DNA of 64,000 nt. Origin: Arenicola marina (taxonomy: Eukaryota > Annelida > Polychaeta > Arenicolidae). Made by a program: the position numbers and the translations under genes. The stretch spans positions 51,769,357-51,833,356 of the forward strand of contig OZ025250.1 of the NCBI GenBank assembly GCA_964019135.1, read 5' to 3'. The notes under the pieces were generated by a model. That model did not search any database, was not told where the DNA came from, and saw only the letters and a list, made by a program, of their open reading frames with translations. Positions 8,877 to 42,201 of the stretch are shown piece by piece (the first letter of the stretch is position 1; every line of letters begins with the position of its first letter).

Positions 8877-9581
8877 TCATCCCTCCGTTCCCGAAATGAG
8901 TCGGAAACACGTGTCGTTGTCAGATAATAACTTCTCCCCGGCTGGCGCCGATCCGTTACACTTATCACCATGGTCGCCGCCGCCGGAGGTACCCGTGTGT
9001 TGAGACAATAACGGATCCCCGGTGTGCACACCGGCGCTACCCGTGTCTTGGGACAATAACTGATCCCTGGTGTTGCACTCCGCCCCGGAAGGTGGCGCCC
9101 TATCGTCGAGAGGGCTCACGTCCACCTCCCGGGGCCCACAGTTCCGGTAGGCGAAGCAATGGAAGAAATCCACTTTGCCGGGGAGGATCTTCTCGGTGAA
9201 TAGCCACCGCGTTAAGCACGAGACAGCGATGAGAGTCACCAGGGAACTCAGCATGGCGAACGTCCTGAAGGGGAAGCGTTGCTGCGCCGTGAGCGGGTCG
9301 TAGTAGGGGTACCGGATGAAGGGCGGGAGGGAAATGGCCGGCTCCCCCGCCCCGACCCTCAGCAGGACGCCCACGATGAACCCGGCCAGGGACCCGTAGC
9401 TGTTGGCTGGCGGCACGAACAGGGCACACGTCAGCTGGGGTGTCATGACGACGAAGATGAAGTCGGCCGCCAGGATGAAGAGGCCGTATATAGAGGAGAC
9501 CACGGCGGCGATGGTCGTTGCTATGGCAGCGACGATGACCAGGGAGACGCGCTGGACCCAAAGTAACTCACGTTGGGACGC
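8877..9581 (-). CDS. SLC5A7: Choline transporter coding exon 9 and stop
   Basis: Residues 364-597 and TGA after acceptor TTTTTATCCAG. It begins [17 protein letters not shown], then [34 protein letters not shown] and [18 protein letters not shown]. This covers the last membrane helices, as in human VYGLWYLSSDLVYIVIFPQ and FPFKTLAMVTSFL. The cytosolic tail holds three LLS sites (RDQLLS, GDPLLS, GEKLLS), partly as a repeat. Dileucine-like signals drive endocytosis of CHT1 in mammals; equivalence here is inferred. Confidence 0.93.
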   Translation of the reverse strand, partial: ASQRELLWVQRVSLVIVAAIATTIAAVVSSIYGLFILAADFIFVVMTPQLTCALFVPPANSYGSLAGFIVGVLLRVGAGEPAISLPPFIRYPYYDPLTAQQRFPFRTFAMLSSLVTLIAVSCLTRWLFTEKILPGKVDFFHCFAYRNCGPREVDVSPLDDRAPPSGAECNTRDQLLSQDTGSAGVHTGDPLLSQHTGTSGGGDHGDKCNGSAPAGEKLLSDNDTCFRLISGTEG

Positions 9582-12500
9582 CTGGATAAAAACACGCACA
9601 AAAACGACGGGGTTACGGAAGTCATTCTACAGTTGGAGCACATTTTTTTTATTCAATATTTCTTTAAAGTTTTACAAATAGAATGTTTTACAGTTAGTCC
9701 ATAACACGTGATAGTCACATCCGGTCCGACACCCCTTGCTCCAAACTTGCTTAAAACTGAACACCATTATTTCGGACTTCCATGTAAATCGGCCCTCTTT
9801 TCACATACCTTGGCCTGACCAACATCTTGTAGATGATTTTGTCCCCCCCTTACCTTGGTTCTGACCACCATCTTGTAGATGTTGTCCCCCCTCCCTTACC
9901 TTGGTTCTGACCACCATCTTGTAGACGTTGTCCCCCCTCCCTTACCTTGGTTCTGACCACCATCTTGTAGACGTTGTCCCCCCTCCCTTACCTTGGTTCT
10001 GACCACCATCTTGTAGATGTTGTCCCCCCTCCCTTACCTTGGTTCTGACCACCATCTTGTAGACGTTGTCCCCCCTCCCTTACCTTGGTTCTGACCACCA
10101 TCTTGTAGACGTTGTCCCCCCTCTCTTACCTTGGTTCTGACCACCATTTTTTTTTTTTTTTTTTTTTTTTATTTCCTTGATGCGTTACAGACATGAGAAG
10201 AGATTGTGGTAATACATTAACACATACATGGCAATTAGGATATAAGAAATAAAAGTTTCTGCCATCGAGACATGAAGACTTTTAACTGATTTTTTTTACA
10301 CAGGATATACTGCTCGTTTGTTATATGATATTTTAGCTTGGATATATAAGAATTTAGCCTGATAGGCTCAGATTTACACTTACATACGTGAATATAATAT
10401 TTGGCTAAAAGGAACGCACTATTTATGGAATAGACCTTACCTTACCTTGGTTCTGACCACCATCTTGTAGACGTTGTCCCCCCTCCCTTACCTTGGTTCT
10501 GACGACCATCTTGTAGATGTTGTCTCCCTCCCTTACCTTGGTTCTGACCACCATCTTGTAGATGTTGTCCCCCACCCTTACCTTGGTTCTGACGACCATC
10601 TTGTTGATGTTGTGTCCCCTCGGCCCCCCCCCCCCCTTACCTTGGTTCTGACCACCATCTTGTAGATGTTGTCTCCCTCCCTTACCTTGGTTCTGACGAC
10701 CGTCTTGTAGATATTGTCCCCCCTCCCTTACCTTGGTTCTGACCACCATCTTGTAGATGTTGTGTCCCCTCCGCCCCCACCCCACCCCCTTACCTTGGTT
10801 CTGACGACCATCTTGTAGATGTTGTCCCCCCTCCCTTACCTTGGTTCTGACGACCATATTGTAGATGTTGTCCCCCCTCCCTTACCTTGGTTCTGACGAC
10901 CATCTTGTAGATGTTGTCCCCCACCCTTACCTTGGTTCTGACGACCATCTTGTTGATGTTGTGTCCCCTCGGCCCCCCCCCCCTTACCTTGGTTCTGACC
11001 ATCTTGTAGATGTTGTCTCCCTCCCTTACCTTGGTTCTGACCACCATCTTGTAGATGTTGTCCCCCACCCTTACCTTGGTTCTGACGACCATCTTGTTGA
11101 TGTTGTGTCCCCTCGGCCCCCCCCCTTACCTTGGTTCTGACCACCATCTTGTAGATGTTGTCTCCCTCCCTTACCTTGGTTCTGACGACCGTCTTGTAGA
11201 TATTGTCCCCCCTCCCTTACCTTGGTTCTGACCACCATCTTGTAGATGTTGTGTCCCCTCCGCCCCCACCCCACCCCCTTACCTTGGTTCTGACGACCAT
11301 CTTGTAGATGTTGTCCCCCCTCCCTTACCTTGGTTCTGACGACCATATTGTAGATGTTGTCCCCCCTCCCTTACCTTGGTTCTGACGACCATCTTGTAGA
11401 TGTTGTCCCCCACCCTTACCTTGGTTCTGACGACCATCTTGTTGATGTTGTGTCCCCTCGGCCCCCCCCCCTTACCTTGGTTCTGACCACCATCTTGTAG
11501 ATGTTGTCTCCCTCCCTTACCTTGGTTCTGACGACCATCTTGTAGATGTTGTCTCCCTCCCTTACCTTGGTTCTGACGACCATCTTGTAGATGTTGTCCC
11601 CCACCCTTACCTTGGTTCTGACGACCATCTTGTTGATGTTGTGTCCCCTCGGCCCCCCCCCTTACCTTGGTTCTGACCACCATCTTGTAGATGTTGTCTC
11701 CCTCCCTTACCTTGGTTCTGACGACCATCTTGTAGATTGTCCCCCCTCCCTTACCTTGGTTCTGACCACCATCTTGTAGATGTTGTGTCCCCTCCGCCCC
11801 CCCCCCACCCCCTTACCTTGGTTCTGACGACCATCTTGTAGATGTTGTCCCCCCTCCCTTACCTTGGTTCTGACGACCATATTGTAGATGTTGTCCCCCC
11901 TCCCTTACCTTGGTTCTGACGACCATCTTGTAGATATTGTCCCCCCTCCCTTATCTTGGTTCTGACGACCATCTTGTAGATGTTGTCCCCCCTCCCTTAC
12001 CTTGGTTCTGACGACCATATTGTAGATGTTGTCCCCCCTCCCTTACCTTGGTTCTGACGACCATCTTGTAGATATTGTCCCCCCTCCCTTATCTTGGTTC
12101 TGACGACCATCTTGTAGATGTTGTCCCCCCCCCCTTACCTTGGTTCTGACCACCAACTTGTAGATGTTGTGTGTGAAGACTGACGCGGACGACAAGATGG
12201 CGCTGTCTATGGATGACATCACAGCGGCGGCCACCGCCCCCAGACCTGTGCGGTGAGATCAGTAAACTCCACTGGTGACGTCCCTCCATCACCTCTCACG
12301 ACATTATCTTTCTGTATTGTAGTGTATAAGTTACATAGACACGTGGAAGCTTATGCCCTCGAAAAATGGCATTACCGGATAACATTAGTATTAATTATTC
12401 TCCGGTAATGTCGTGTTCCTTGCCTACCCATAACGATCCGCTGAATCGATGCTTTAAAGAAGAATGCTTTGGCCTCTTTCAACGAGCACAAACATTCCGT

Positions 12501-15500
12501 GATTTCCTTCACAACATTCTCCGACTTTTTCTCCGGCCCTTGCAATTTCCCCATCTTCCCAGGTTTTTAAAGAAACTGGAAACCTTAATTTAGTGGAACA
12601 AATGGATTAATTTGTGTGAGGCGGGCATGTTTTACGTGATAAATGCGACAAACCGGTCACGTGGCTCACCTATGAGGGAGACGACTCGAGGAGTGAGGTA
12701 TTTCAACACCAGGGGGAGCACCATGCTGGACTGGTTGGTCTCCAAGGGCGACACGCCCAGAGCCGTGGCGTTCCAATCTGAAACACCGAAACATGTTATT
12801 ATATCCAATGATACTCTTGGACCTAAAGTGTTGTATTGGTTGAATGCTATGAACCCAAAGTGAGGGATATACACAGCCGTGAAATACTACCATTAGATAC
12901 GACCGTTTAAGCATGTGCTGTATTATCTGACATTTCCAATTGTTTCACTAATGACGTCATAGGTGTGATGTTTCATCTGTGACGTCATTGGTGCCGTGTT
13001 TAACTTATTATGACGTCATCGGTGCTGTTTCGCTTATGACGTCATCGGTGTAGTCTTTCATCCGTGCTGAAATTCACGTATGACGTCATCAGTGCTACAA
13101 CGTCACAATGGCGTGGTACTGACCTGTGCTGACGGCCACGGAGCCTATGACGTCACAATGGCGTGGTACTGACCTTTGCTGACGGCCACGGCGCCTATGA
13201 CGTCACAATGGCGTGGTACTGACCGGTGCTGACGACCACGGCGCCTATGACGTCACAATGGCGTGGTACGGACGTGTGCTGACGGCCACGGCGCATATGA
13301 CGTCACAATGGTGTGGTTACTGACCTGTGTCGACGGCCACGGCGCCTATGACGTCACAATGGCGTGGTACTGACCTGTGCTGAGGGCCACGGCGCCTATG
13401 ACGTCACAATGGCGTGGTACTGACCTGTGCTGACGGCCACGGCGCCTATGATGTCACAATGGCGTGGTACTGACCTGTGCTGACGGCCACGACGCTTATG
13501 ACGTCACAATGGCGTGGTACTGACCTGTGCTGACGGCCACGGCGCCTATGACGTCACAATGGCGTGGTACTGACCTTTATGCTGACGGCCACGGCGCCTA
13601 TGACGTCACAATGGCGTGGTACTGACCTTTATGCTGACGGCCACGGCGCCTATGACGTCACAATGGTGTGGTACTGACCTGTGCTCACGGCCACGGCGCC
13701 GATGGCGATGGAGGGCAGCCCGAGGAGGAGGGCCCCCACCCCCCCCGCCACGGACAGCAGCTGGGCCTGGCGAGTCGACCTCACGGCCAACACCCGCTGG
13801 AAGTACGTCTGCCAGGGAATCGTGCCCAGCGTCTGGAGCAGCGCAGCAACAGATATGAAATGTAAGGTGTGTACATGTACGCCCAAATAGGGCCAAGATA
13901 GCCCCAGTTCTGTGGCTGTACGACGGGCAAAAATCGAAATTGGTGGTGTGGAAAAAGATGGACATGTGATGGAACATCGAGCCTGTTGAAAGATATCGAT
14001 GGTGCTGCCCAGTAACATAACATCTATGGAGTTAAAAATTACTGGATTTGGCGGAGAGTGTTGCTTAGTTTGTTTCACAGAGCTGCGGTTAGACGGCAAC
14101 CCAAGGCGTTCAGGGGTAAACTACTTGGTCCGGGCTGTGGCTGTAGACGGGCCCTGTCAGATTTTTGCCCGTCGTACATCCACAGAACTGGGGCTAGGGC
14201 CAAGTTACCTCCCGGGAGAATGAAATGGGGTTGATATTTCCCGCAAGCTAAAAAATATTCTATATAGTGTGCTGCAATGAAAGATTATCATCCATATTTA
14301 TTGTATTGGTAACATTTGCTTCAAATTGAAGCTTAAATATGGCAGAAAACCTAATTTGTTGTTAGTTGCAAGTTATGTGTACTACGTCATAGATGTGTTT
14401 AGTCCAGTTTTATTCGGGATGCTTAGCAGTCATACTACAATTTGCCTCACTGTAATAATCTCTTACAAGCCCTATGAGTTAACTACGACACACAATGCGG
14501 ACCACTTACCATGGCGATCAACAGATCGACCCAGACTGCTACCATGGTGATGTCAATTGTCCCAAACCACGCGTCACGGGTCGTGGACAGGGGCGCAACG
14601 TTGTCATTGGTCACCACGAAGGGCAAAGACAAGCCCTAGGAAATAAAGAGATGTTGTCATTGGTTACTACAATGGCAGAGACAAGCCGTAGACTTCGGGA
14701 AATGCGCGCATTGATATGTATTTGATGCCGATGCATCGAACATCTTTTTCTTATTAAAGAGGTTCTTAGAAGCTGTAGATTTCTTGTAAGGCGCCATTAG
14801 CCTCTTTCTGGTGTATGTCAAATGAAGCATGTTCAAGAGGTTACCACAAAGGCCAAGACTAGTCCAAGAGAATAAACAAACGTTGCCATTGGTTACCACA
14901 AAGGCCAAGAACATTCCAAGAGATATAAACAAACGTTGCCATCGGTTACAACAAAGGTCAACCCAGTGAAAGAGATTAAACAAACGTTGCTATTAGTTAC
15001 CGTTGAGGGCAAAGACAAGCCTGGCGAGAATAAGAATATTGAAACCCCTGACCATAGGGCTATACAGTTCTCGCGATCGGGCCGCGAGACTTCAGTTTTG
15101 GGAACAAACAAACACACGTGCTCCATGTTGAAGTATAGGCACCTATAAGTCAATTTCTTTCCAGGTTTATTCGAAAGACTATGAGTAACATTTCACTAAA
15201 CATGGCTATGAGAGATATACGTTCAAATATTTCGAGACGATGAAGCGCAGAACTTTGGGAATATACAAGAAAAAATCCGTCTTTAAAACACTCGAAAGCT
15301 AAAAATAACGTTCTAAATTTAGCCCTGCACCAGGGCTTTCGCAAGTTCACCAAACAGCGAGTGATGTCACAGAGTTTCGCGTGCCTCCGCGGGAACAAAA
15401 ATGGCGAGAACAAGTGATCGACTTAACCATTCCGCTGTCAAAATGTGCAGTGCATGGAGTAACAGCACACGGATGCATCAGAAAACCACATGGTAAAGAT

Positions 15501-18500
15501 AAAATAAGACCAGTTGGAGGTTTTCGTATCACTTTTGGATCATGAAAAGACCAAGTTTCTTAATTTTTTTAAGTTTTCTGTTTGAAGCGTTGCACCAACG
15601 TTGTCATGCAAAATGCAAAAAATGCAAAAAAAACGTTAGTTTCTCAGCCGTATTGTCCCGTCGTAACAAATATTCGTCATTGTGATGGCGCAAACGAATA
15701 AAAAATGTCGTCTATCCGTTTTGTGAAGCTAAATTTCCTAAATATTCTTAATCATATCGCCAAGGCCTTCCGCAATGGACCCACCCCTGGGCGCCTGGCT
15801 TTTGCGCAGGTAGTCTGGTTCCCAGTCTCTCTCTTGCGTAACATACACGTCACGCCTACGCCACAGATAGTCAGGATACCAGTGTGCGCAGAGATTCTAA
15901 ACTCGTTCCGAACACGTGCTTCGTTTGTTTGTCCCCAAAATGAGTAAACCGGAAGTCTAAGCGAACGAGACGTTATAGCCCTATATATTACACGTTTACA
16001 TCCAATGCCGGTTGGTTGGACTTTTTGGACGTGTTTGCCTCTGCATGTCATATCGCGACAATGGGAATGGTTAAGTTAGAGAGGAGCCACGTGTCTGGAT
16101 GTAACCCATTCTATTCGCGAAAAAGACATGGGATTTTTATCCTGCACCAACCAATGCAGCAGCACAAACGGGATTCGCCCCGTGCACCGGCCACTTAGGG
16201 CCGGCCTACAAAAACACACTGGACACTAGCCGAACGGCCTACCTGCTACGCCACGGGGTGACCCCCGGCCATCCTAACTAATGGAGCCGAAAATATGTCT
16301 TACACAGACCAAGTGGATTCCCACCTGGCCCTGACCACCACAGTGACCAACAGGACGATGCTTATAAGCTATTTAGCTTTCTTTTACAACAAACCTGATA
16401 GTTTTTGAATCTATGAATATTGAGGAAAAACTACGGATCAAATACATACCAGTTGGTTGTATATTCAGGACGCTTTAATCCCTTTTGGTCATATCGCGTC
16501 AATGGGAGAAGGAAGGGAAGAGCGAAGCCATGTCCCCGGGGTTAACCCCTATTCTTTGCGAAGAAAGACATGGGATCGTTATCCTGCGACCACACAGCGA
16601 TGGCCGCAGCCAAGCTCGAACCACCGATCCACGTGCCGTTAGGCTCTCAGGTGACCAGAGCGTTCTAGCCCACTGAGCCATCGAGGCGGCCCCCCGTACA
16701 TACCAGTCCCAGGATGATAAACAGGAGTTGTATGACGTCTGTGTAGGCGACCGAGATCAGCTGACCAAACATGGTGTACAGCAGGGCCACCGCCGATGAC
16801 ATCACTATCGCTATGGTAACGTTGAGCTGAATGATGACGCTGAGGCTCGTTCCTATGGTGACAAGAAACAGCGCGCGCAGCTTCATGTACATTGCGGCAA
16901 ACATATACAACACAAAAATATGATACGTAATTTAAAATTGTACACTAAAAGTCACATATTATTTGTTAATCATACGGGTAGACCTGCAGAACACATTCTC
17001 ATACTGCAATACCTAAATTTTAATATTTAAGTCTTTTGTGTTTTATGCCTTCGAACCGGTGACGTCACGGACTGGTCATAATGGTCCTCGAAATCCTAAG
17101 TTAGGAAATGTATGTGTTCTCATATCATCTTAAGAAAAGGCAACAATACAAAAGAAAACCATACTAATCTTGCCCTGTTGCACACTATATGCATCAAGGA
17201 TCGAATATACATTTACATCATTTCCATTCAAATGATTTTTAAAGGGTTAATATTATACTACCACCCCCCCCCCCCCCGTGCCCCTCCCTCCCCCTAGACT
17301 GCCTACCGAGAGCGGCCAGGATGGATGCGGCCCAGAAGACATCCCCGCAGATGGCTGCCAAGTAGAGCAGAGCCACCATCACGTGCCCGAAACGCTGCTG
17401 GAAGGGGTCAAACAAGGTCAAATAGTTGTGTTCCCGCATCTTCCTGGCAAACATCAGGCCACCTGTATAGAGAAACAAAAAGGGTGGGGGGGGGCATGAA
17501 TGATACGACAATAGGACAATAGAACAACTTCACACTTGTACCTACCATCTGCTAAGATTGTCAAGTTCAAACTCACGAGTAACGAAAAAGGACTCAAGCG
17601 TGGGCGGAGCTTAGTGTCGGAGCCTGGATCGGTCTATTGGGGGCCACACAGATGTTTAATGGTGTAAAGCTCTACATACATAGGGAGAGGTCCACACAGA
17701 TGTTTAATGGTGTAAAGCTCTACATACCTAGGGAGAGGTCCACACAGATGTTTAATGGTGTAAAGCTCTACATACATAGGGAGAGGTCCACACAGATGTT
17801 TAATGGTGTAAAGCTCTACACACCTAGGGAGAGGCCCACACAGATGTTTAATGGTGCAAAGGTCTACACACCTAGGGAGAGGTCCACACAGATGTTTAAT
17901 GGTGTGAAGCTCTACATATCTAGGGAGAGGTCCACACAGATGCTTAATGGTGTAAAGCTCTACATACATAGGGAGAGGTCCACACAGATGCTTAATGGTG
18001 TAATGGTCTACATACCTAGGGAGAGGTCCACACAGATGCTTAATGGTGTAAAGCTCTACATACATAGGGAGAGGTCCACACATATGTTTAATGGTGTAAT
18101 GGTCTACATACCTAGGGAGAGGTCCACACAGATGTTTAATGGTGTAAAGCTCTACATACCTAGGGAGAGGTCCACACAGATGTTTAATGGTGTAAAGCTC
18201 TACATACCTAGGGAGAGGTCCACACAGATGCTTAATGGTGTAAAGCTCTACATACATAGGGAGAGGTCCACACAGATGTTTAATGGTGTAATGGTCTACA
18301 TACCTAGGGAGAGGTCCACACAGATGTTTAATGGTGTAAAGCTCTACATACCTAGGGAGAGGTCCACACAGATGTTTAATGGTGTCAAGCTCTACATACC
18401 TAGGGAGAGGTCCACACAGATGCTTAATGGTGTAAAGCTCTACATACATAGGGAGAGGTCCACACAGATGTTTAATGATGTAATGGTCTACATACCTAGG

Positions 18501-20269: not shown

Positions 20270-21036
20270 GGTCGCTGGGTGTTATGTCTGGCCGCTCATG
20301 TCAGTGGCTGTGTAAGCTGGAATAGATCTATAATTATCAACTTTGAGATTATCTATAGGGAAAATCATCTCCTGATGTTGAATAAATATGGGTATCAGAG
20401 GTATGAACACATATATCAATACAAATATATATCAGCATAGATATATACCATAACGTAATATGAAAATGAATAGTTATTAGTTTCAACACCAAGATTTTAT
20501 AGTGCCTTGATATTATAAAAATGTTGTCAAATAGTTGAATGCACAACCCTACAATGAGAAGGCTGCCACTCTACCCAATGCACCACCAGGTTTAATTCAT
20601 ACAGACTGGTAGTAGTTACACAGCTAAATGGGCCCATATCTTGTCCTGAAATCCTTTCCCACCTAAATTGTTGCAACCCCACTTGTCTAATATTTACTTT
20701 CTGTTGTTCAAAGTGGTAACAAGATCTATAACTAATTGAAGTCTAGAATTGTTTTGAATATATCAGATTTTAGAGAAATAATAATATTCAACTTTGTATA
20801 CCAATATTTGGTACTAATTTTGTCAAAAACAGCATTTACTTATTTTACTCCTTCCAGATACTAACTATGCAGCTAAGATAATTAAAAAATAAATCTACTT
20901 TATAAAATGATTCTTTGATATAATATTCTTTAACAGCATTATTTGATAATAAATATATCTATAAAATATTGTCTTTGAAAACCTAGTGTGATCTCACGCT
21001 GCCTAGCTATAAATAGTGAATGGCGAAACATTAAGA
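20270..21036. other. Upstream DNA of the choline transporter
   Basis: This stretch should hold the 5' UTR and promoter. I see only AT-rich sequence and no clear core promoter motif. Possible 5' UTR acceptors on the minus strand are TATTCCAG (20,317) and TTACACAG (20,308). Confidence 0.4.
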
Positions 21037-21336
21037 GAGCATTTGTTTATTCTCAACCTGTTGAAGGTTTAATGTTTACGTTTAGCTATATTGAAGAATC
21101 TTCAACCTAAACTTGCTGAGGATAAAAAAATGCATTTATTGTGTGTTGGGATTTCCGTTGAATATGTCAACGTCATGATGTAAACCAAGGTGTCAACAAA
21201 GTTGAACTTGTTGATAAAGTTGAAGTAACTTGTATTGAGGTTTCATTTTTGTTAAGAATAAAAAAAATGTGCTTGAGCAGGTTAACGTTTAAGGTTTATT
21301 TAAACTTAAACCTGTTGACAATAAACAAATATGCTC
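21037..21336. mobile_element. MITE with ~30-bp inverted ends
   Basis: GAGCATTTGTTTATTCTCAA at the left pairs with the right end ACAATAAACAAATATGCTC. The pairing extends through AACCTGTTGA/AACCTGTTGAC. It is about 300 bp long with no coding potential. Confidence 0.6.
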
Positions 21337-21488
21337 CAATTGTCATTTGAAATATTGAAAATGAAGTACGAGATGACAAAAATAGTCTATAAACTATTAC
21401 AAAAAAAAACATTACCGACCAAAAAATTAACGTACAATGAATGTCACATAAGCTTGTAGAATCTAGTGTTGCACATAAAGCCTTAGCA

Positions 21489-21571
21489 CTAAATCACCCT
21501 GGCCGTTGTTGTGTACAGGGTGATAACTCAACATAGGGAAAAAGTACACAACAGTGGCCAGGGTGATTTAG
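21489..21571. mobile_element. 83-bp hairpin MITE
   Basis: CTAAATCACCCTGGCC...GTTGTGTAC pairs with GTACACAACAG...GGCCAGGGTGATTTAG around a short loop. Confidence 0.6.
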
Positions 21572-26340: not shown

Positions 26341-26406
26341 ACGTGCGGGCTGTGCTCCGTACGCCTGGTGCCTGGGGGGCTGTCCTGCGTGGGGGGAGTG
26401 CGGACT
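26329..26406 (-). CDS. GPS2: GPS2 last coding exon
   Basis: Residues 394-418 and TGA: SPHSPHAGQPPRHQAYGAQ then PARSYY. The acceptor is CCGTTGCAG. The end resembles the human C-terminus (PRFYHK) in having an Arg-x-Tyr tip. The last codons lie in the first unit of the 3' 23-bp array. Confidence 0.85.
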   Translation of the reverse strand, partial: SPHSPHAGQPPRHQAYGAQPARSYY

Positions 26407-32400: not shown

Positions 32401-35400
32401 TCGCGCCCTCCCCAGTATCAAGCAATTACTCCTGCGCCAACTGTAGAACCACTGTCGCGTCGCGCCCTCCCCAGTATCAAGCAATTACTCCTGCGCCAAC
32501 AGTAGAACCACTGTCGCGTCGCGCCCTCCCCAGTATCAAGCAATTACTCCTGTGCCAACTGTAGAACCACTGTCGCGTCGCGCCCTCCCCAGTATCAAGC
32601 AATTACTCCTGCGCCAACTGTAGAACCACTGTCGCGTCGCGCCCTCCCCAGTATCAAGCAATTACTCCTGCGCCAACTGTAGAACCACTGTCGCGTCGCG
32701 CCTTCCCCAGTATCAAGCAATTACTCCTGTGCCAACTGTAGAACCACTGTCGCGTCGCGCCCTCCCAAGTATCAAGCAATTACTTCTGCGCCAACAGTAG
32801 AACCACTGTCGCGTCGCGCTCTCCCCAGTATCAAGCAATTACTCCTGCGCCAACTGTAGAACCACTGTCGCGTCGCGCCCTCCCCAGTATCAAGCAATTA
32901 CTCCTGCGCCAACTGTAGAACCACTGTCGCGTCGCGCCCTCCCCAGTATCAAGCCAATTACTCCTGCGCCAACTGTAGAACCACTGTCGCGTCGCGCCCT
33001 CCCCAGTATCAAGCCAATTACTCCTGCGCCAACTGTAGAACCACTGTCGCGTCGCGCCCTCCCCAGTATCAAGCAATTACTCCTGCGCCAACTGTAAAAA
33101 CACTGTCGCGTCGCGCCCTCCCCAGTATCAAGCAATTACTCCTGCGCCAACTGTAGAACCACTGTCGCGTCGCGCCTTCCCCAGTATCAAGCAATTACTC
33201 CTGCGCCAACTGTAGAACCACTGTCGCGTCGCGCCCTCCCCAGTATCAAGCCAATTACTCCTGCGCCAACTGTAGAACCACTGTCGCGTCGCGCCTTCCC
33301 CAGTATCAAGCAATTACTCCTGCGCCAACAGTAGAACCACTGTCGCGTCGCGCTCTCCCCAGTATCAAGCAATTACTCCTGCGCCAACTGTAGAACCACT
33401 GTCGCGTCGCGCCCTCCCCAGTATCAAGCAATTACTCCTGCGCCAACTGTAGAACCACTGTCGCGTCGCGCTCTCCCCAGTATCAAGCAATTACTCCTGC
33501 GCCAACTGTAGAACCACTGGCGCGTCGCGCCCTCCCCAGTATCAAGCAATTACTCCTGCGCCAACTGTAGAACCACTGTCGCGTCGCGCCCTCCCCAGTA
33601 TCAAGCAATTACTCCTGCGCCAACTGTAGAACCACTGTCGCGTCGCGCCTTCCCCAGTATCAAACAATTACTCCTGCGCCAACTGTAGAACCACTGTCGC
33701 GTCGCGCCCTCCCCAGTATCAAGCAATTACTCCTGCGCCAACTGTAGAACCACTGTCGCGTCGCGCCCTCCCCAGTATCAAGCCAATTACTCCTGCGCCA
33801 ACTGTAGAACCACTGTCGCGTCGCGCCTTCCCCAGTATCAAGCCAATTACTCCTGCGCCAACTGTAGAACCACTGTCGCGTCGCGCCCTCCCCAGTATCA
33901 AGCCAATTACTCCTGCGCCAACTGTAGAACCACTGTCGCGTCGCGCCCTCCCCAGTATCAAGCAATTACTCCTGCGCCAACTGTAGAACCACTGTCGCGT
34001 CGCGCCCTCCCCAGTATCAAGCAATTACTCCTGCGCCAACAGTAGAACCACTGTCGCGTCGCGCCCTCCCCAGTATCAAGCAATTACTCCTGTGCCAACT
34101 GTAGAACCACTGTCGCGTCGCGCCCTCCCCAGTATCAAGCAATTACTCCTGCGCCAACTGTAGAACCACTGTCGCGTCGCGCCCTCCCCAGTATCAAGCA
34201 ATTACTCCTGCGCCAACTGTAGAACCACTGTCGCGTCGCGCCTTCCCCAGTATCAAGCAATTACTCCTGTGCCAACTGTAGAACCACTGTCGCGTCGCGC
34301 CCTCCCAAGTATCAAGCAATTACTTCTGCGCCAACAGTAGAACCACTGTCGCGTCGCGCTCTCCCCAGTATCAAGCAATTACTCCTGCGCCAACTGTAGA
34401 ACCACTGTCGCGTCGCGCCCTCCCCAGTATCAAGCAATTACTCCTGCGCCAACTGTAGAACCACTGTCGCGTCGCGCCCTCCCCAGTATCAAGCAATTAC
34501 TCCTGCGCCAACTGTAGAACCACTGGCGCGTCGCGCCCTCCCCAGTATCAAGCAATTACTCCTGCGCCAACTGTAGAACCACTGTCGCGTCGCGCCCTCC
34601 CCAGTATCAAGCAATTACTCCTGCGCCAACTGTAGAACCACTGTCGCGTCGCGCCTTCCCCAGTATCAAACAATTACTCCTGCGCCAACTGTAGAACCAC
34701 TGTCGCGTCGCGCCCTCCCCAGTATCAAGCAATTACTCCTGCGCCAACTGTAAAACCACTGTCGCGTCGCGCCCTCCCCAGTATCAAGCAATTACTCCTG
34801 CGCCAACTGTAGAACCACTGTCGCGTCGCGCCTTCCCCAGTATCAAGCAATTACTCCTGCGCCAACTGTAGAACCACTGTCGCGTCGCGCCCTCCCCAGT
34901 ATCAAGCAATTACTCCTGCGCCAACTGTAGAATCACTGTCGCGTCGCGCCCTCCCCAGTATCAAGCAATTACTCCTGCGCCAACTGTAGAACCACTGGCG
35001 CGTCGCGCCCTCCCCAGTATCAAGCAATTACTCCTGCGCCAACTGTAGAACCACTGTCGCGTCGCGCCCTCCCCAGTATCAAGCAATTACTCCTGCGCCA
35101 ACTGTAGAACCACTGTCGCGTCGCGCCTTCCCCAGTATCAAACAATTACTCCTGCGCCAACTGTAGAACCACTGTCGCGTCGCGCCCTCCCCAGTATCAA
35201 GCAATTACTCCTGCGCCAACTGTAAAACCACTGTCGCGTCGCGCCCTCCCCAGTATCAAGCAATTACTCCTGCGCCAACTGTAGAACCACTGTCGCGTCG
35301 CGCCTTCCCCCGTATCAAGCAATTACTCCTGCGCCAACTGTAGAACCACTGTCGCGTCGCGCCCTCCCCAGTATCAAGCAATTACTCCTGCGCCAACTGT

Positions 35401-38400
35401 AGAATCACTGTCGCGTCACGCCCTCCCCAGTATCAAGCAATTACTCCTGTGCCAACTGTAGAACCACTGTCGCGTCGCGCCTTCCCCAGTATCAAACAAT
35501 TACTCCTGCGCCAACTGTAGAACCACTGTCGCGTCGCGCCCTCCCCAGTATCAAGCAATTACTCCTGCGCCAACTGTAGAACCACTGGCGCGTCGCGCCC
35601 TCCCCAGTATCAAGCAATTACTCCTGCGCCAACTGTAGAACCACTGTCGCGTCGCGCCCTCCCCAGTATCAAGCAATTACTCCTGCGCCAACTGTAGAAC
35701 CACTGTCGCGTCACGCCCTCCCCAGTATCAAGCAATTACTCCTGTGCCAACTGTAGAACCACTGTCGCGTCGCGCCTTCCCCAGTATCAAACAATTACTC
35801 CTGCGCCAACTGTAGAACCACTGTCGTGTCGCGCCCTCCCTAGTATCAAGCAATTACTCCTGCGCCAACTGTAGAACCACTGTCGCGTGGCGCCCTCCCC
35901 AGTATCAAGCAATTACTCCTGTGCCAACTGTAGAACCACTGTCGCGTCGCGCCCTCCCCAGTATCAAGCAATTACTCCTGCGCCAACTGTAGAACCACTG
36001 TCGCGTCGCGCCCTCCCCAGTATCAAGCAATTACTCCTGCGCCAACTGTAGAACCACTGTCGCGTCGCGCCTTCCCCAGTATCAAGCAATTACTCCTGTG
36101 CCAACTGTAGAACCACTGTCGCGTCGCGCCTTCCCCAGTATCAAGCAATTACTCCTGCGCCAACTGTAGAACCACTGTCGCATCGCGCTCTCCCCAGTAT
36201 CAAGCAATTACTCCTGCGCCAACTGTAGAACCACTGTCGCGTCGCGCCCTCCCCAGTATCAAGCCAATTACTCCTGCGCCAACTGTAGAACCACTGTCGC
36301 GTCGCGCCCTCCCCAGTATCAAGCAATTACTCCTGCGCCAACTGTAGAACCACTGTCGCGTCGCGCCCTCCCCAGTATCAAGCCAATTACTCCTGCGCCA
36401 ACTGTAGAACCACTGTCGCGTCGCGCCCTCCCCAGTATCAAGCAATTACTCCTGCGCCAACTGTAGAACCACTGTCGCGTCGCGCCCTCCCCAGTATCAA
36501 GCAATTACTCCTGCGCCAACAGTAGAACCACTGTCGCGTCGCGCCCTCCCCAGTATCAAGCAATTACTCCTGTGCCAACTGTAGAACCACTGTCGCGTCG
36601 CGCCTTCTCCAGTATCAAGCAATTACTCCTGCGCCAACTGTAGAACCACTGTCGCGTCGCGCCTTCCCCAGTATCAAGCAATTACTCCTGCGCCAACCGT
36701 AGAACCACTGTCGCGTCGCGCCCTCCCCAGTATCAAGCAATTACTCCTGCGCCAACTGTAGAACCACTGTCGCGTCGCGCCCTCCCCAGTATCAAGCAAT
36801 TACTCCTGCGCCAACTGTAGAACCACTGTCGCGTCGCGCCTTCCCCAGTATCAAGCAATTACTCCTGTGCCAACTGTAGAACCACTGTCGCGTCGCGCCC
36901 TCCCAAGTATCAAGCAATTACTTCTGCGCCAACAGTAGAACCACTGTCGCGTCGCGCTCTCCCCAGTATCAAGCAATTACTCCTGCGCCAACTGTAGAAC
37001 CACTGTCGCGTCGCGCCCTCCCCAGTATCAAGCAATTACTCCTGCGCCAACTGTAGAACCACTGTCGCGTCGCGCCTTCTCCAGTATCAAGCAATTACTC
37101 CTGCGCCAACTGTAGAACCACTGTCGCGTCGCGCCTTCCCCAGTATCAAGCAATTACTCCTGTGCCAACTGTAGAACCACTGTCGCGTCGCGCCCTCCCA
37201 ACTATCAAGCAATTACTCCTGCGCCAACAGTAGAACCACTGTCGCGTCGCGCTCTCCCCAGTATCAAGCAATTACTCCTGCGCCAACTGTAGAACCACTG
37301 TCGCGTCGCGCCCTCCCCAGTATCAAGCAATTACTCCTGCGCCAACTGTAGAACCACTGTCGCGTCGCGCTCTCCCCAGTATCAAGCAATTACTCCTGCG
37401 CCAACTGTAGAACCACTGGCGCGTCGCGCCCTCCCCAGTATCAAGCAATTACTCCTGCGCCAACTGTAGAACCACTGTCGCGTCGCGCCCTCCCCAGTAT
37501 CAAGCAATTACTCCTGCGCCAACTGTAGAACCACTGTCGCGTCGCGCCTTCCCCAGTATCAAACAATTACTCCTGCGCCAACTGTAGAACCACTGTCGCG
37601 TCGCGCCCTCCCCAGTATCAAGCAATTACTCCTGCGCCAACTGTAAAACCACTGTCGCGTCGCGCCCTCCCCAGTATCAAGCAATTACTCCTGCGCCAAC
37701 TGTAGAACCACTGTCGCGTCGCGCCTTCCCCAGTATCAAGCAATTACTCCTGCGCCAACTGTAGAACCACTGTCGCGTCGCGCCCTCCCCAGTATCAAGC
37801 CAATTACTCCTGCGCCAACTGTAGAACCACTGTCGCGTCGCGCCTTCCCCAGTATCAAGCCAATTACTCCTGCGCCAACTGTAGAACCACTGTCGCGTCG
37901 CGCCCTCCCCAGTATCAAGCCAATTACTCCTGCGCCAACTGTAGAACCACTGTCGCGTCGCGCCCTCCCCAGTATCAAGCAATTACTCCTGCGCCAACTG
38001 TAGAACCACTGTCGCGTCGCGCCCTCCCCAGTATCAAGCAATTACTCCTGCGCCAACAGTAGAACCACTGTCGCGTCGCGCCCTCCCCAGTATCAAGCAA
38101 TTACTCCTGTGCCAACTGTAGAACCACTGTCGCGTCGCGCCCTCCCCAGTATCAAGCAATTACTCCTGCGCCAACTGTAGAACCACTGTCGCGTCGCGCC
38201 CTCCCCAGTATCAAGCAATTACTCCTGCGCCAACTGTAGAACCACTGTCGCGTCGCGCCTTCCCCAGTATCAAGCAATTACTCCTGTGCCAACTGTAGAA
38301 CCACTGTCGCGTCGCGCCCTCCCAAGTATCAAGCAATTACTTCTGCGCCAACAGTAGAACCACTGTCGCGTCGCGCTCTCCCCAGTATCAAGCAATTACT

Positions 38401-41400
38401 CCTGCGCCAACTGTAGAACCACTGTCGCGTCGCGCCCTCCCCAGTATCAAGCAATTACTCCTGCGCCAACTGTAGAACCACTGTCGCGTCGCGCCCTCCC
38501 CAGTATCAAGCCAATTACTCCTGCGCCAACTGTAGAACCACTGGCGCGTCGCGCCCTCCCCAGTATCAAGCAATTACTCCTGCGCCAACTGTAGAACCAC
38601 TGTCGCGTCGCGCCCTCCCCAGTATCAAGCAATTACTCCTGCGCCAACTGTAGAACCACTGTCGCGTCGCGCCTTCCCCAGTATCAAACAATTACTCCTG
38701 CGCCAACTGTAGAACCACTGTCGCGTCGCGCCCTCCCCAGTATCAAGCAATTACTCCTGCGCCAACTGTAAAACCACTGTCGCGTCGCGCCCTCCCCAGT
38801 ATCAAGCAATTACTCCTGCGCCAACTGTAGAACCACTGTCGCGTCGCGCCTTCCCCAGTATCAAGCAATTACTCCTGCGCCAACTGTAGAACCACTGTCG
38901 CGTCGCGCCCTCCCCAGTATCAAGCAATTACTCCTGCGCCAACTGTAGAATCACTGTCGCGTCGCGCCCTCCCCAGTATCAAGCAATTACTCCTGCGCCA
39001 ACTGTAGAACCACTGGCGCGTCGCGCCCTCCCCAGTATCAAGCAATTACTCCTGCGCCAACTGTAGAACCACTGTCGCGTCGCGCCCTCCCCAGTATCAA
39101 GCAATTACTCCTGCGCCAACTGTAGAACCACTGTCGCGTCGCGCCTTCCCCAGTATCAAACAATTACTCCTGCGCCAACTGTAGAACCACTGTCGCGTCG
39201 CGCCCTCCCCAGTATCAAGCAATTACTCCTGCGCCAACTGTAAAACCACTGTCGCGTCGCGCCCTCCCCAGTATCAAGCAATTACTCCTGCGCCAACTGT
39301 AGAACCACTGTCGCGTCGCGCCTTCCCCCGTATCAAGCAATTACTCCTGCGCCAACTGTAGAACCACTGTCGCGTCGCGCCCTCCCCAGTATCAAGCAAT
39401 TACTCCTGCGCCAACTGTAGAATCACTGTCGCGTCACGCCCTCCCCAGTATCAAGCAATTACTCCTGTGCCAACTGTAGAACCACTGTCGCGTCGCGCCT
39501 TCCCCAGTATCAAACAATTACTCCTGCGCCAACTGTAGAACCACTGTCGCGTCGCGCCCTCCCCAGTATCAAGCAATTACTCCTGCGCCAACTGTAGAAC
39601 CACTGGCGCGTCGCGCCCTCCCCAGTATCAAGCAATTACTCCTGCGCCAACTGTAGAACCACTGTCGCGTCGCGCCTTCCCCAGTATCAAGCAATTACTC
39701 CTGCGCCAACTGTAGAACCACTGTCGCGTCACGCCCTCCCCAGTATCAAGCAATTACTCCTGTGCCAACTGTAGAACCACTGTCGCGTCGCGCCTTCCCC
39801 AGTATCAAACAATTACTCCTGCGCCAACTGTAGAACCACTGTCGTGTCGCGCCCTCCCTAGTATCAAGCAATTACTCCTGCGCCAACTGTAGAACCACTG
39901 TCGCGTGGCGCCCTCCCCAGTATCAAGCAATTACTCCTGTGCCAACTGTAGAACCACTGTCGCGTCGCGCCCTCCCCAGTATCAAGCAATTACTCCTGCG
40001 CCAACTGTAGAACCACTGTCGCGTCGCGCCCTCCCCAGTATCAAGCAATTACTCCTGCGCCAACTGTAGAACCACTGTCGCGTCGCGCCTTCCCCAGTAT
40101 CAAGCAATTACTCCTGTGCCAACTGTAGAACCACTGTCGCGTCGCGCCTTCCCCAGTATCAAGCAATTACTCCTGCGCCAACTGTAGAACCACTGTCGCA
40201 TCGCGCTCTCCCCAGTATCAAGCAATTACTCCTGCGCCAACTGTAGAACCACTGTCGCGTCGCGCCCTCCCCAGTATCAAGCCAATTACTCCTGCGCCAA
40301 CTGTAGAACCACTGTCGCGTCGCGCCCTCCCCAGTATCAAGCAATTACTCCTGCGCCAACTGTAGAACCACTGTCGCGTCGCGCTCTCCCCAGTATCAAG
40401 CAATTACTCCTGCGCCAAATGTAGAACCACTGTCGCGTCGCGCCCTCCCCAGTATCAAGCAATTACTCCTGCGCCAACTGTAAAACCACTGTCGCGTCGC
40501 GCTCTCCCTAGTATCAAGTTTCCATCTGGCCCAAATAGTAAGACTCTGGTTTGCTGTTGGATGTGTCTTCCACTTACTTGTGTTCTTTAAGCTGCGCTCG
40601 CTTTCTGCTCTCATCCTCCTGGTGAAGAACCTTCTTGAGCTGGGAGAAGAGCTGGTGTTTCTCGGTCTTCATCGACTCCAGCTTGATGTGAAGCTGGCCA
40701 ATCTTTCCATTGCACAGAGCAAGAAAAACATATTCTAAGTTTATTCTTACTTTTCGGCATATGATTCTATAGTACACGAAAGCAACATACAGTAATGTTA
40801 TATATACTATGGGGAGGTCCATTTAGTGTAGTTACGGTTTAGATGCGTATTTATATTGTTATTAAATAAACAGGCAAGACATGAAACAATGGATAGATAA
40901 AGCCCAAACATTGATACAGGTATATTATCAAAGTTACAATAAGGAAAACCCAATTCAACACCTATAGCATACAAGATATACATGTATATACAAATATCAG
41001 TACCATTTTAAACTGGATAAAATTTACAATGGGTTAAATAATTTTAAGAAGTAATGGCTCTAAGCACCTGGTCTTTGGTCTGCTCCAAAGTCAAGCTGTC
41101 TTCTTCCTCCTTCTTCTTTCTCAATTCTCTTTCCTTCTTTAATCTCTCCATCTCTTCATCATGTTCTTGCTCTAACAAATGCATGCAGAGAAAAATGATT
41201 TTCAATATTTTTGACAATAGAAGCCAATCCAACATATGATATCGCTACTCATATCAAGATACATGAATTACCTTTCAACTTTATGTAGATTTATATGATA
41301 CAGATGATACAAAAATTACCCCAAAAACAGATCATATGCTATTTAAGGTCGAGAGCGGGCGGCACCTGGCACATTTTTTCAGAACTAAATTCAACCATTT

Positions 41401-42201
41401 ATTTTTTTAATTTTTAGGGTCAAATTTTAACCAATATCAATCTATGTCACATCAAATAATATTTCCTCCACCAAAATTGCATGAATTTGATGTATTACAA
41501 GCAAATACCAAGATATTTAGTGATTGCATATATGCGCCGAAAGGCACAATTGTGACAATTCTTCGTTTTGGGCCTATTTTATGGCCAATTTTGTTACAAT
41601 AGAGCTTATAGAACAAAAGTTAGTTCAGAAACATATCGTTTTTTTTGTTATTTTTGTATTCACCATGACGCTAGGCTTCATCAGGCAGTTTTTTGGGGAA
41701 GTCTGTCGACCAGTTTTTATAGGGGATTTCAAAACATTGAGAAAAAAACACATTTATAGGATTTTCCCATTGACCGCCATGTTAAAGCCAATTTGACAAA
41801 AATGCCCTAAACATTTTTTTCGTGAAGTGACATATATTTTGTATTACATTTTCAGGTAGATACATACATGATACTTATCTAGAGAATTTTTTTTTTAAAT
41901 CCGTCAACTAATTTTTTTTCACCCCCCTACTCGCCCTCGACTAAGTTTGGGAAATATATATCAAGCCATTCTTCTCCATAATACAGTCATTGTATCATCA
42001 TTTCCTATCAACTAGAGAGTATCTGTTCAGCCACCACCATCATCTGAACCCCTGGAAACACCAGTGACTGATGGAATCTCACCTTTCTTTTTGTTATCCC
42101 GCTCCCTCATGATGTGTCTCTTCAGAGCTTGGTACATGGCTCTTGTCATCTTCTGTCTTTCAATCATTACACCAGGCATTGTTGTTAAGAGAGCCTCAAA
42201 A
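26329..42201 (-). CDS. GPS2: GPS2, G protein pathway suppressor 2, complete coding gene
   Basis: A nuclear subunit of the NCoR/SMRT-HDAC3-TBL1 corepressor complex, also linked to JNK and ubiquitin signalling in vertebrates. Nine coding exons join in phase to 418 aa (human 327): 42201-42083 (ATG at 42179), 41171-41068, 40702-40578, 30097-29971, 29746-29620, 29307-28963, 28423-28314, 27684-27541, 26406-26329. Diagnostic matches: MPGVMIERQK with ALKRHIMRER (1-26; human MPALLERPK, ALHRHIMMER), a charged coiled coil (33-57), DSLTLEQTKDQ (57-67), EKHQLFSQLKKVLHQED (81-97; human EKHQLFLQLKKVLHEEE), SLSLQQQLEHANQKSGFS (320-337; human LSLQKQMEHANQQTGFS). The middle is longer than in human and rich in Pro, Gln, Ser and Tyr. 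A 5' UTR intron is implied by the acceptor at 42,202. Intron 3 exceeds 10 kb. Confidence 0.94.
26641..27430. repeat. 43-bp minisatellite in the last GPS2 intron, about 18 copies
   Basis: The unit is 43 bp with the core GTACTTAGTCAATAAAGCCA then GGGACAGCTCATC. Units differ at several positions (GATTGCAG versus GAACTCGG). It does not resemble a neighbouring exon edge. Confidence 0.92.
27541..27684 (-). CDS. GPS2: GPS2 coding exon 8
   Basis: Residues 346-393: PYMPPQQAAMIVASQQSSPQ, then GSIVTGYPVRTQ to APTQ. The acceptor is GTTGTCTTCCAG and the donor GACCCAG|GTGAGTG. Its Gln/Pro-rich, disordered character agrees with the family's C-terminal half. Confidence 0.87.
28314..28423 (-). CDS. GPS2: GPS2 coding exon 7
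   Basis: Residues 309-345: YLNSPHAAAP then SLSLQQQLEHANQKSGFSED. This matches the human C-terminal block LSLQKQMEHANQQTGFS and confirms identity far from the N-terminal domain. The acceptor is TTATCTCAG and the donor CAACAG|GTGCGTG. Confidence 0.94.
28761..28992 (-). repeat. 29-bp minisatellite copied from the exon 6 donor junction
   Basis: Eight copies at exactly 29-bp spacing (28,761; 28,790; 28,819; 28,848; 28,877; 28,906; 28,935; 28,964). On the minus strand each reads CAACGGCTGCCCCAGCCAG|G followed by TATGTAGGT. The first copy is the exon end itself, so seven decoy donors follow the real one. Confidence 0.95.
28963..29307 (-). CDS. GPS2: GPS2 coding exon 6
   Basis: Residues 194-309, the largest exon. 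It is Gln/Pro/Ser/Tyr-rich and contains an internal 7-residue repeat (QHQAPPT-like, about five copies). It ends GYQVQRLPQP. The acceptor is GATTATTGCAG and the donor CAGCCAG|GTATGTAGG. Low-complexity composition fits a disordered linker. Confidence 0.87.
29620..29746 (-). CDS. GPS2: GPS2 coding exon 5
   Basis: Residues 152-193 plus one base: QGVKRQRSPSPPPAAMYQHF, then YPPISYAQVKQEPYQAP. It holds an RSPSPPP motif and an Ile-Ser-Tyr-rich stretch. VKQEP resembles a sumoylation consensus (psi-K-x-E), which is notable because vertebrate GPS2 is sumoylated. The donor is CCCCAA|GTAAGCAG. Confidence 0.85.
29738..29866 (-). repeat. About 50-bp triplication of the exon 5 acceptor junction
   Basis: Three copies of an acceptor-plus-exon-start segment. 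On the minus strand they read TGACGTCAG|CAAGGGGTGA (real), TGACGTCATCAAGGGGTTA and CACGTCAG|CAAGGGGTCA. GGTTGACATGGTGTGTGTTT lies between them. The farthest copy keeps an AG at the same place. Confidence 0.8.
29971..30097 (-). CDS. GPS2: GPS2 coding exon 4
   Basis: Residues 109-151: EMISLQQYHPGIQVPGH, then MQTHMPPRPTKYMHVPV to MVP. The acceptor is CTCTCTTACAG and the donor GTACCG|GTGAGTC. It joins exon 3 directly in frame across the 10.5-kb intron. The sequence is not conserved with human but is of the expected Pro/Gln/His-rich type. Confidence 0.85.
30107..30698. other. Intron 3 sequence beside the 59-bp array
   Basis: Unique intronic DNA between the array and exon 4. I see no exon or repeat here beyond short C-rich runs near 30,580-30,625. 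Confidence 0.5.
30699..40519. repeat. Giant 59-bp satellite-like array, about 166 copies, in GPS2 intron 3
   Basis: Units of 59-60 bp (AATTACTCCTGCGCCAACTG, TAGAACCACTGTCGCGTCGC, GCCCTCCCCAGTATCAAG) run without break for about 9.8 kb. The units are CpG-dense and nearly identical. Higher-order duplication is clear: 31,281-32,820 matches 32,821-34,360 at an exact 1,540-bp offset. About 33,650-36,330 matches 37,667-40,350 at 4,017-4,018 bp. Both share private variants such as CCTTCCCCCG and GCGTGGCG. The unit does not match any GPS2 exon edge. There are no unique spacers, so it is not a CRISPR array. Confidence 0.97.
40578..40702 (-). CDS. GPS2: GPS2 coding exon 3
   Basis: Residues 68-108 plus two bases, with EKHQLFSQLKKVLHQEDESR, the best-conserved block of the family. 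The acceptor is ATGGAAAG and the donor CACAA|GTAAGTGG. The giant 59-bp array begins about 60 bp into the next intron. Confidence 0.94.
41068..41171 (-). CDS. GPS2: GPS2 coding exon 2
   Basis: Residues 33-67: QEHDEEMERLKKERELRKKK then EEEDSLTLEQTKDQ, a strongly charged coiled-coil segment matching human MSLEETKEQ at its end. The acceptor is ATTTGTTAG and the donor GACCAG|GTGCTT. Confidence 0.92.
41345..41945. mobile_element. Possible worn MITE in GPS2 intron 1
   Basis: AAGGTCGAGAGCGGGC at the left is a partial inverse of GCCCTCGACTAAG at the right, about 600 bp apart. The interior is AT-rich with no coding signal. The ends match only partly, so this is tentative. Confidence 0.35.
42083..42201 (-). 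CDS. GPS2: GPS2 first coding exon
   Basis: Acceptor TTTATTTCAG precedes 42,201, so at least one noncoding exon lies upstream. The ATG is at 42,179-42,177 (ACAATGCC) and encodes residues 1-32 plus one base. The upstream FEALLTT reading is 5' UTR. The donor is AAGAAAG|GTGAGA. Confidence 0.9.

Follow-up and report, generated by a model that had tools for sequence, protein, structure and literature searches.

Tandem arrays at exon edges have been described in amphioxus under the name of mirages, at Adh3, the globins BflGb6 and BflGb9, PGBD5 and troponin C, and the retinol dehydrogenase and presenilin loci are also cited as mirage sites (excerpts of PMC3087553 and PMC3902484). According to these excerpts, mirages are minisatellite-like tandem copies that span exon-intron boundaries on the donor or the acceptor side; they leave normal splicing undisturbed and are unstable in length, in the germline or somatically. 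In human segmental duplications, internal tandem repeats of 30 bp on average occur at exon-intron boundaries and alter gene structure, a case that, in the part of the source consulted, concerns recently duplicated paralogues and novel splicing (PMC2812944). Among protostomes, the excerpted report on earthworm metallothionein genes describes a minisatellite-filled intron, together with exon 4 duplications that are absent from the transcript (PMC12783039). The consulted parts of two other reports describe a 27-bp minisatellite in intron 3 of an abalone TSSK1-like gene (PMC6905558) and CeRep25B of Caenorhabditis elegans, a dispersed repeat lying near alternative exons and over-represented near alternative splicing (PMC4039745).

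We analysed a stretch of 64,000 nucleotides (the window), in which seven arrays in the genes for the choline transporter CHT and for GPS2 start from exon edges (Table 1). Exon-edge arrays, known from amphioxus, thus occur as the same kind of structure in a distant animal group, the lophotrochozoans, and the resemblance to the amphioxus Adh arrays that the earlier note mentioned holds, those arrays being the mirages of the excerpted papers. Here, too, the copies span exon-intron boundaries, at six splice edges, four donors and two acceptors. The differences are that the range reported so far for mirages is the cephalochordates, that up to 39 copies stand at one splice edge here whereas the excerpted globin haplotypes have 6 and 3, that one array here involves a stop codon, and that an excess was counted here in a sample chosen blind to repeats. 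As to undisturbed splicing, use of the outer splice site is here argued from the reading frame, and as to length the analysis covers a single assembly. Unlike the copies in human paralogues, those described here are expected to remain intronic. The earthworm genes likewise have an intron filled by a minisatellite, in an annelid, but its monomers average ~180 bp and exon-edge copying is not reported in the part of PMC12783039 consulted; the abalone and CeRep25B cases are likewise protostome intronic minisatellites, and the consulted parts of their reports mention exon-edge derivation for neither.

The splice sites of both genes could be placed because complete in-frame GT-AG models were obtained. 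The CHT1/SLC5A7 model encodes 597 aa in 9 coding exons, and its product matches PDB 8j74, 'High affinity choline transporter 1', with an E value of 1.7e-140, matches PF00474, and reaches top identities of ~60% among the best 120 matches listed. The GPS2 model encodes 418 aa, also in 9 coding exons; its product matches PF15991 (E 6.6e-49), with top identities of ~50% across most of its length among the best 120 matches listed. In phylogenies both genes cluster with lophotrochozoans, and their carrier is probably an annelid, judging from these gene trees. For GPS2, a clade uniting the window gene with amphioxus was rejected (p-AU 1.2e-5), which disposes of the amphioxus host that the earlier note implied, and a clade of all annelids with the window gene was marginally rejected (p-AU 0.035).

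Table 1. Genes, exon-edge arrays and other arrays in the window (positions counted from the first base of the window)
Feature	Positions	Strand	Placed edge	Unit and remarks
CHT1/SLC5A7, high-affinity choline transporter gene	8877..20269	-		in-frame GT-AG model
Repeat within CHT exon 9	8983..9082	-		48 bp, multiple of three; coding; TRF
CHT exon 8 donor array	9806..12170	-	12139	46 bp (32 exonic + 14 intronic bases)
CHT exon 6 donor array	13100..13704	-	13679	50 bp; 12 copies; 22 exonic bases
CHT exon 5 acceptor array, interrupted	14595..15010	-	14635	52 bp
CHT exon 2 donor array	17644..19531	-	19504	48 bp; 39 copies including native; 28 exonic bases
GPS2 gene	26329..42179	-		in-frame GT-AG model
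GPS2 stop-codon array	24689..26343	-	26329 (stop codon end)	23 bp; 71.7 copies (TRF)
GPS2 intron 8 array	26643..27431	-		43 bp; comparison array
GPS2 exon 6 donor array	28759..28981	-	28963	29 bp; 7.7 copies (TRF); 18 exonic bases
Repeat within GPS2 exon 6	29130..29219	-		21 bp, multiple of three; coding
GPS2 intron 5 array	29385..29529	-		21 bp; comparison array
GPS2 exon 5 acceptor array, short	29739..29870	-	29746	47 bp; 8 exonic bases
GPS2 intron 3 array	30704..40518	-		59 bp x 166; comparison array

All seven edge arrays were recovered by TRF as head-to-tail repeats with units of 23-52 bp, which is the size of minisatellite units (~10-100 bp). The array at the CHT exon 8 donor is broken at ~10148-10435 by an insert with a poly(T) end, and the unit at the exon 6 donor has a lesser second match to CHT exon 4 (score 32, with shuffles reaching 31). 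The interrupted case, at the CHT exon 5 acceptor, consists of the native copy, one degenerate copy, ~140 bp of other sequence and three distal copies. The weak cases are the GPS2 exon 5 acceptor, where TRF counts 1.9 copies (29739-29828) with a partial third beyond, and the GPS2 stop, where the array, the only one at the two stop edges, enters the coding sequence by ~11 bases, stop codon included. Five further arrays lie within the two genes, three of them intronic and two inside coding exons, and arrays of any kind make up ~76% of the intron length of GPS2 and ~51% of that of CHT, the latter figure counting the insert within the exon 8 array.

The claim that seven arrays were seeded from host exon edges was confirmed by comparing the 50 bp spanning each junction with the remainder of its intron, against 200 simple shuffles each. 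All 200 shuffles were beaten at 6 of the 32 splice edges and at 1 of the 2 stop edges, which are exactly the seven, and at the runner-up junction 2 of 200 shuffles were equally good. When units were compared with exons alone, five of the seven arrays matched their own exon at its end or within 2 bases of it, with none of 200 shuffles equal, whereas none of seven other arrays, which take in some but not all of the small arrays of the window, matched an exon end; exons beyond CHT and GPS2 are only partly known in this comparison. The GPS2 exon 5 acceptor and stop arrays were not significant against exons alone, the former having its best match in an exon other than its own, and both became significant only when the adjoining intron or UTR was included. 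The exon is the source rather than the product of the copies, since the protein segments encoded by the exonic bases of the CHT units can be aligned to CHT1 of 8j74. No exon similarity was found for the three GPS2 intron arrays away from edges (units of 59, 43 and 21 bp). The 59-bp array starts exactly 59 bp past the exon 3 donor, and this gap was rejected as a repeat unit (score 10, with best shuffles at 19).

The arrays were born locally within the sequence at hand. A search with 12 array units in 360 kb of host sequence, in partly overlapping stretches, gave no match outside the array of origin, so a dispersed repeat or mobile element was rejected. The earlier note had argued that each array arose at its own border and that no single element had spread, and both statements agree with this confinement.

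An excess of arrays at junctions, as the earlier note expected, is present here and again in a second set of exons from this genome. With an overlap of 5 bp or more as the threshold, 1.03 of the 11 arrays in CHT and GPS2 should lie over a splice edge by chance, and 5 do (P 0.0018); with GC-matched placement 1.28 were expected (P 0.0044), and with the founding unit set to at least 60 bp, 1.59 (P 0.013). Because GC matching reduces the excess without abolishing it, composition alone is no explanation of exon seeding. The second sample consisted of chaperonin exons, picked blind to repeats, with 67 placed edges, two of which were set by reading the sequence rather than by the automatic placement rule. 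Of its 30 arrays, 6 lie across a splice edge, where 0.95 would be expected (P 2.2e-4); these six fall in three gene loci and are not independent, and zero exon-internal arrays were counted. In the pooled samples, 11 of 41 arrays lie on 99 edges against 1.66 expected (P 2.6e-7, or 6.7e-5 under the strictest variant of the test), and collapsing the sequence and counting founding units gives an excess of ~6-fold. It concerns overlap and not proximity, since array starts within 50 bp of an edge numbered 3 (4 after correction of the two edges) against 2.9 expected.

The reading frame argues for the outer splice site as the one used. Translation continued past the four donors of the window would end at a stop after 5, 26, 93 or 5 nt of intron, and the first inner donor precedes this stop only at CHT exon 8, where the added 46 nt would shift the frame; the inner donors are thus hardly the used ones. 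As in the mirages of the excerpted papers, many copies keep their splice signal, with GT preserved in 87 of the 90 extra donor copies counted; the acceptor arrays and the far end of the exon 8 array lie outside this count. The three distal copies in the CHT exon 5 array have lost AG from its native position, and one of them has an AG six bases inward. Within the units of the four donor arrays, the splice window showed no consistent advantage in conservation over the remaining positions (variability ranks 32/48, 44/50, 10/46 and 2/29, with 1 the least variable), so there is no sign of selection on the copied sites.

We consider it probable that the arrays are locally born minisatellites of the mirage type, founded by a duplication across the exon end and tolerated on the noncoding side. 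The founding duplication would straddle the exon end, the native exon copy would remain under coding and splice-site constraint, and all further copies would pile up on the noncoding side. The mRNA would be unaltered if the spliceosome picks the exon-proximal site, as exon definition would favour. The source of the excess is the weakest step; here exonic sequence may seed arrays more readily than intronic sequence, and expansions inside exons would be purged unless in frame, leaving survivors at exon edges, splice or stop. Exon seeding fits because there are exon-internal repeats of 48 and 21 bp and an array at a stop edge, and these suit it at least as well as seeding at splice sites. Several observations count against the favoured reading: local recurrence is no commoner for edge windows than for intron windows, the chaperonin cases are confined to three loci and include no exon-internal array, and just one of the two stop edges carries an array.

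A mutational process tied to the splice junctions themselves, for instance slippage or breaks connected with transcription or the splicing machinery, would not need exonic sequence to be special, and we regard it as rather unlikely. It would account for an excess that affects overlapping arrays and is absent at 0-50 bp, that outlasts GC matching, and that touches donors and acceptors alike, but three arrays, one at the stop codon and two within exons, contain no splice site. It is less likely still that the genome is simply so rich in arrays that the edge counts reflect mere array extent. TRF coverage is indeed 41.8% in a sample of 20 segments of 10 kb, taken at even intervals along one chromosome, and local recurrence is about equal for edge and intron windows (8/65 at edges, 53/317 in introns and 1/65 at exon centres, edges not being above introns), these counts resting on automatic placement with two edges uncorrected. 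However, the copies in the array layouts examined carry exon sequence, meaning that the founding unit sat on the edge, and counting by founding unit on collapsed sequence leaves the excess standing.

The unbroken GT of most extra donor copies might suggest that selection retains the copies as spare or decoy sites aiding splicing. This is very improbable, as the variability ranks reveal no consistent extra constraint, the distal CHT exon 5 acceptors lack AG at the native position, and the array at the stop edge is free of splice sites. We give hardly any credence to a reading of the arrays as traces of intron gain through tandem duplication (the Rogers or globin mirage model); the donor motifs that this model requires are present in the copies, but it also predicts copies reaching the downstream acceptor, and the acceptors that close the introns with donor arrays, at CHT exons 3, 7 and 9 and GPS2 exon 7, have no similarity to those introns (between 16 and 104 of the 200 shuffles were equally good).

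Returning to founding duplications across exon ends, we tentatively suggest, while thinking it somewhat doubtful, that exon edges may be preferred birthplaces of minisatellites across animals, acting independently in cephalochordates and lophotrochozoans, supplying much of the intron length of the affected genes and offering the spliceosome tens of near-identical sites from which the outermost is to be chosen. Should founding duplications in unrelated phyla really favour the ends of exons, either the splice junction or exonic sequence would be mutagenic in a way that goes beyond ordinary minisatellite models, and intron growth would gain a source anchored at junctions. The arrays would also serve as natural tests of how splice sites are chosen, with as many as 39 near-identical donors in line, the first of which alone keeps the frame.

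The exon numbers of the earlier note are those of our GT-AG gene models. Both genes, the high-affinity choline transporter gene (CHT) and GPS2, are on the minus strand and have 9 coding exons, encoding 597 and 418 aa, respectively, with all introns GT-AG and all joins in frame. The CHT protein matches PF00474 and PDB 8j74, "High affinity choline transporter 1" (E 1.7e-140), which we take to be the human protein, and the GPS2 protein matches PF15991. The seven arrays that had been described as copying exon edges of these genes are real, as all seven are present in the TRF output. In the direction of transcription, the native exon edge comes first in each array, and further copies extend into the noncoding side. 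The CHT exon 5 acceptor array is broken: the native copy is followed by a degenerate copy, ~140 bp of unrelated sequence and three distal copies, in which the AG is absent from its native place. When the 32 splice and 2 stop edges of both genes were tested, 0/200 simple shuffles were as good at exactly the seven edges named; against exons alone, the units of 5/7 edge arrays did better than 200 shuffles, compared with 0/7 other arrays tested (exons outside the two genes are partly known). A poly(T)-ended insert of ~285 bp, resembling a retroposed element, interrupts the CHT exon 8 array.

The exonic portions of the CHT units lie within protein that aligns lengthwise with CHT1, which indicates that the exon is the source of the array. 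A few positions separate the array consensus from the native copy (three neighbouring exonic bases in the case of CHT exon 2); thus, the exon was not overwritten by the array. Local seeding, as proposed previously, was borne out, with 12 window units matching their own array only when compared with 360 kb from the host (stretches that overlap in part, window included).

Arrays and other repeats in the window and in the host assembly (G000)
Feature	Position	Unit (bp)	Exonic bases in unit	Remark
CHT exon 2 donor array		48	28	
CHT exon 6 donor array		50	22	
CHT exon 8 donor array		46	32	
GPS2 exon 6 donor array		29	18	
GPS2 exon 5 acceptor array		47	8	
GPS2 stop array		23	~11	including stop codon
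Insert in CHT exon 8 array	window 10148-10435			
GPS2 intron 3 array	window 30704-40518	59		166 copies, 9.8 kb, 96% match
Coding-exon array	window 8983-9082	48		
Coding-exon array	window 29130-29219	21		
Array outside both genes	window 975-1497			
Array outside both genes	window 60617-62335	29		58 copies
SINE-like repeat copies	window ~1-260, 4560-4790, 5600-5850, 8060-8270, 16460-16700, 62640-62850			
Dispersed element copies	window ~15060-15990, 48570-49540, 50140-51110			
Chaperonin edge array	C8:22399647			donor
Chaperonin edge array	C8:22405017			donor, overlap 5 bp only
Chaperonin edge array	C17:26059139			donor
Chaperonin edge array	C17:26070828			donor
Chaperonin edge array	C17:26069214			acceptor
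Chaperonin edge array	C11:24863492			donor
Seventh chaperonin array	C17:26069812			acceptor
Myosin-head exon runs	C4:367768-371306, 380231-384073			

Three intron arrays in the gene pair have no exon similarity. The largest, in GPS2 intron 3, begins 59 bp past the exon 3 donor, precisely the length of one unit, and the gap between them, compared with the array unit, is not a unit. Two further arrays lie inside coding exons with units that are multiples of three, indicating that exon-internal arrays can survive. Arrays of any kind make up ~51% of intron length in CHT (counting the insert) and ~76% in GPS2. The two arrays outside both genes do not overlap the few exons visible from reading the translation; the second lies upstream of exons judged by reading to be protein-kinase-like (62428-64000, plus strand). 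Reading also revealed a SINE-like dispersed repeat with a tRNA-like head in both orientations, and a dispersed element of ~950 bp in three similar copies.

Of the copies surveyed in the four donor arrays, excluding native copies and the distal portion of the CHT exon 8 array, 87/90 keep GT (37/38 in CHT exon 2, 11/11 in exon 6, 33/35 in exon 8 and 6/6 in GPS2 exon 6). Across these arrays, the nine splice-site columns showed no consistent extra conservation over the other unit columns, their variability ranking 32/48, 44/50, 10/46 and 2/29 (1 being least variable). Read-through from exon to intron meets an in-frame stop after 5 (CHT exon 2), 26 (exon 6), 93 (exon 8) and 5 nt (GPS2 exon 6); in CHT exon 8 the first inner donor precedes the stop, and its 46 nt would cause a frame shift. 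From their sequence the inner donors appear usable, but the protein would be broken, and for this reason the outermost donor is presumably the one used, judging by the reading frame.

We sampled the window's chromosome (assembly size 867 Mb) at 20 evenly spaced 10-kb stretches; TRF covered 41.8% of their length, and six of them (L002, L003, L005, L015, L018 and L021) were near-total tandem arrays, and enrichment must be measured against this very high base rate. We searched the genome with the chaperonin domain PF00118 (49 exon matches) and excised the best 30 matches with 1.5 kb on either side, so that loci were picked by search ranking, blind to repeats. Merging gave 19 stretches (77,377 bp) covering 39/49 matches, or 78 possible edges, of which 67 were placed on a splice motif (two corrected by eye) whereas the remaining 11 coincided with domain ends or lacked a good motif. 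Of the 30 TRF arrays in these stretches, six have an edge overlap of 5 bp or more; a seventh enters the exon by only 3 bp, yet carries an 18-base copy of the exon interior. In the layouts printed, copies carry the exon end plus the splice motif. Myosin matches in the same genome included runs of near-duplicate myosin-head exon matches, and 21/77 short myosin matches lay within open frames of at least 425 aa; such runs are known for mutually exclusive muscle myosin exons.

When each array was collapsed to a single founding unit and positions were drawn at random, with the GPS2 stop-edge array left out, 0.95 overlaps were expected in the chaperonins against the six observed (P 2.2e-4; 1.22 with GC matching, P 7.8e-4; 1.66 with units of 60 bp or more, P 0.0052), and 1.03 in the window genes against 5/11 arrays (P 0.0018; 1.28 with GC matching, P 0.0044; 1.59 with 60-bp units, P 0.013). 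A separate count for the window alone, in which any overlap qualified, gave 1.26 expected (P 0.0048), or 1.59 with GC matching (P 0.012). The earlier note had proposed comparing arrays with exon boundaries, and on the joined sample (99 edges, 41 arrays) this gave 11 observed versus 1.66 expected (P 2.6e-7; 2.10 with GC matching, P 2.1e-6; 2.81 with 60-bp units, P 6.7e-5), although these P values presume more independence than exists, because only three gene loci (C8, C17 and C11), all of one family, supply the six chaperonin cases. The excess lies in edge overlap itself: before the two corrections, 12 arrays overlapped an edge versus 1.8 expected, compared with 3 versus 2.9 at 0-50 bp, 6 versus 5.0 at 50-150 bp, 3 versus 5.4 at 150-300 bp, 1 versus 6.9 at 300-600 bp and 13 versus 15.1 beyond. 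Counting bases instead of founding units gives no excess; window-by-window recurrence nearby was 8/65 for edges, 53/317 for introns and 1/65 for exon centres (edge versus intron, Fisher P 0.46, before corrections), since intron arrays are long and a random intron stretch often falls within one. We prefer the founding-unit count because the copies are new DNA carrying exon sequence.

The point that needs explanation is the approximately sixfold excess of founders at edges. The array anatomy is explained by a local tandem duplication spanning the exon end, followed by unequal exchange, with constraint on the exon pushing growth onto the noncoding side. A splice-linked process may found arrays at edges, but it accounts for splice edges only. 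Alternatively, exonic DNA may found arrays more readily, exon-internal ones being lost unless in frame; such exon seeding, towards which we lean, would account for the array at the stop codon and for both arrays within coding exons as well.

Both genes group with lophotrochozoan sequences. Among the matches listed, GPS2 is closest to that of Paralvinella, an annelid (51% across the full length, E 2.4e-122), whose annotated protein (P0002) has the N-terminal, exon 1 peptide twice in succession, and two Branchiostoma proteins reach 35 and 39% identity over 39% of the length; for CHT, the top identities listed are nemertean and molluscan (~60%), with Branchiostoma lanceolatum at 49%. In maximum-likelihood trees, GPS2 joins Paralvinella (91/96) with chordates a separate clade (100/99), and CHT groups with Capitella and one further sequence (83/78) within a clade (100/100) in which every named sequence is lophotrochozoan. 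For GPS2, a clade of window and amphioxus (p-AU 1.2e-5) and grouping with chordates (p-AU 0.0027) were rejected, and an all-annelid clade including the window marginally so (p-AU 0.035).

Published passages describe such exon-edge arrays in amphioxus globin genes, named mirages after Adh3, with intron gain from mirages proposed (PMC3087553), add PGBD5 and cite troponin C (PMC3902484), and report whole or partial exons within introns of amphioxus VCBP3, some with splice sites (PMC2632668), and human tandem repeats at exon-intron boundaries (PMC2812944). Further passages concern introns with minisatellites in earthworm (PMC12783039) and abalone (PMC6905558), a C. elegans minisatellite near alternative exons (PMC4039745), and tandem repeats in general only (PMC2206037; PMC12130307). 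Among the passages listed from the open-licence literature, we recognised no report of exon-edge-copying arrays beyond cephalochordates and human duplications. The arrays described here are real, locally seeded and of the mirage kind, in a host from a different animal branch, and this first count supports an exon-edge preference in the host genome.
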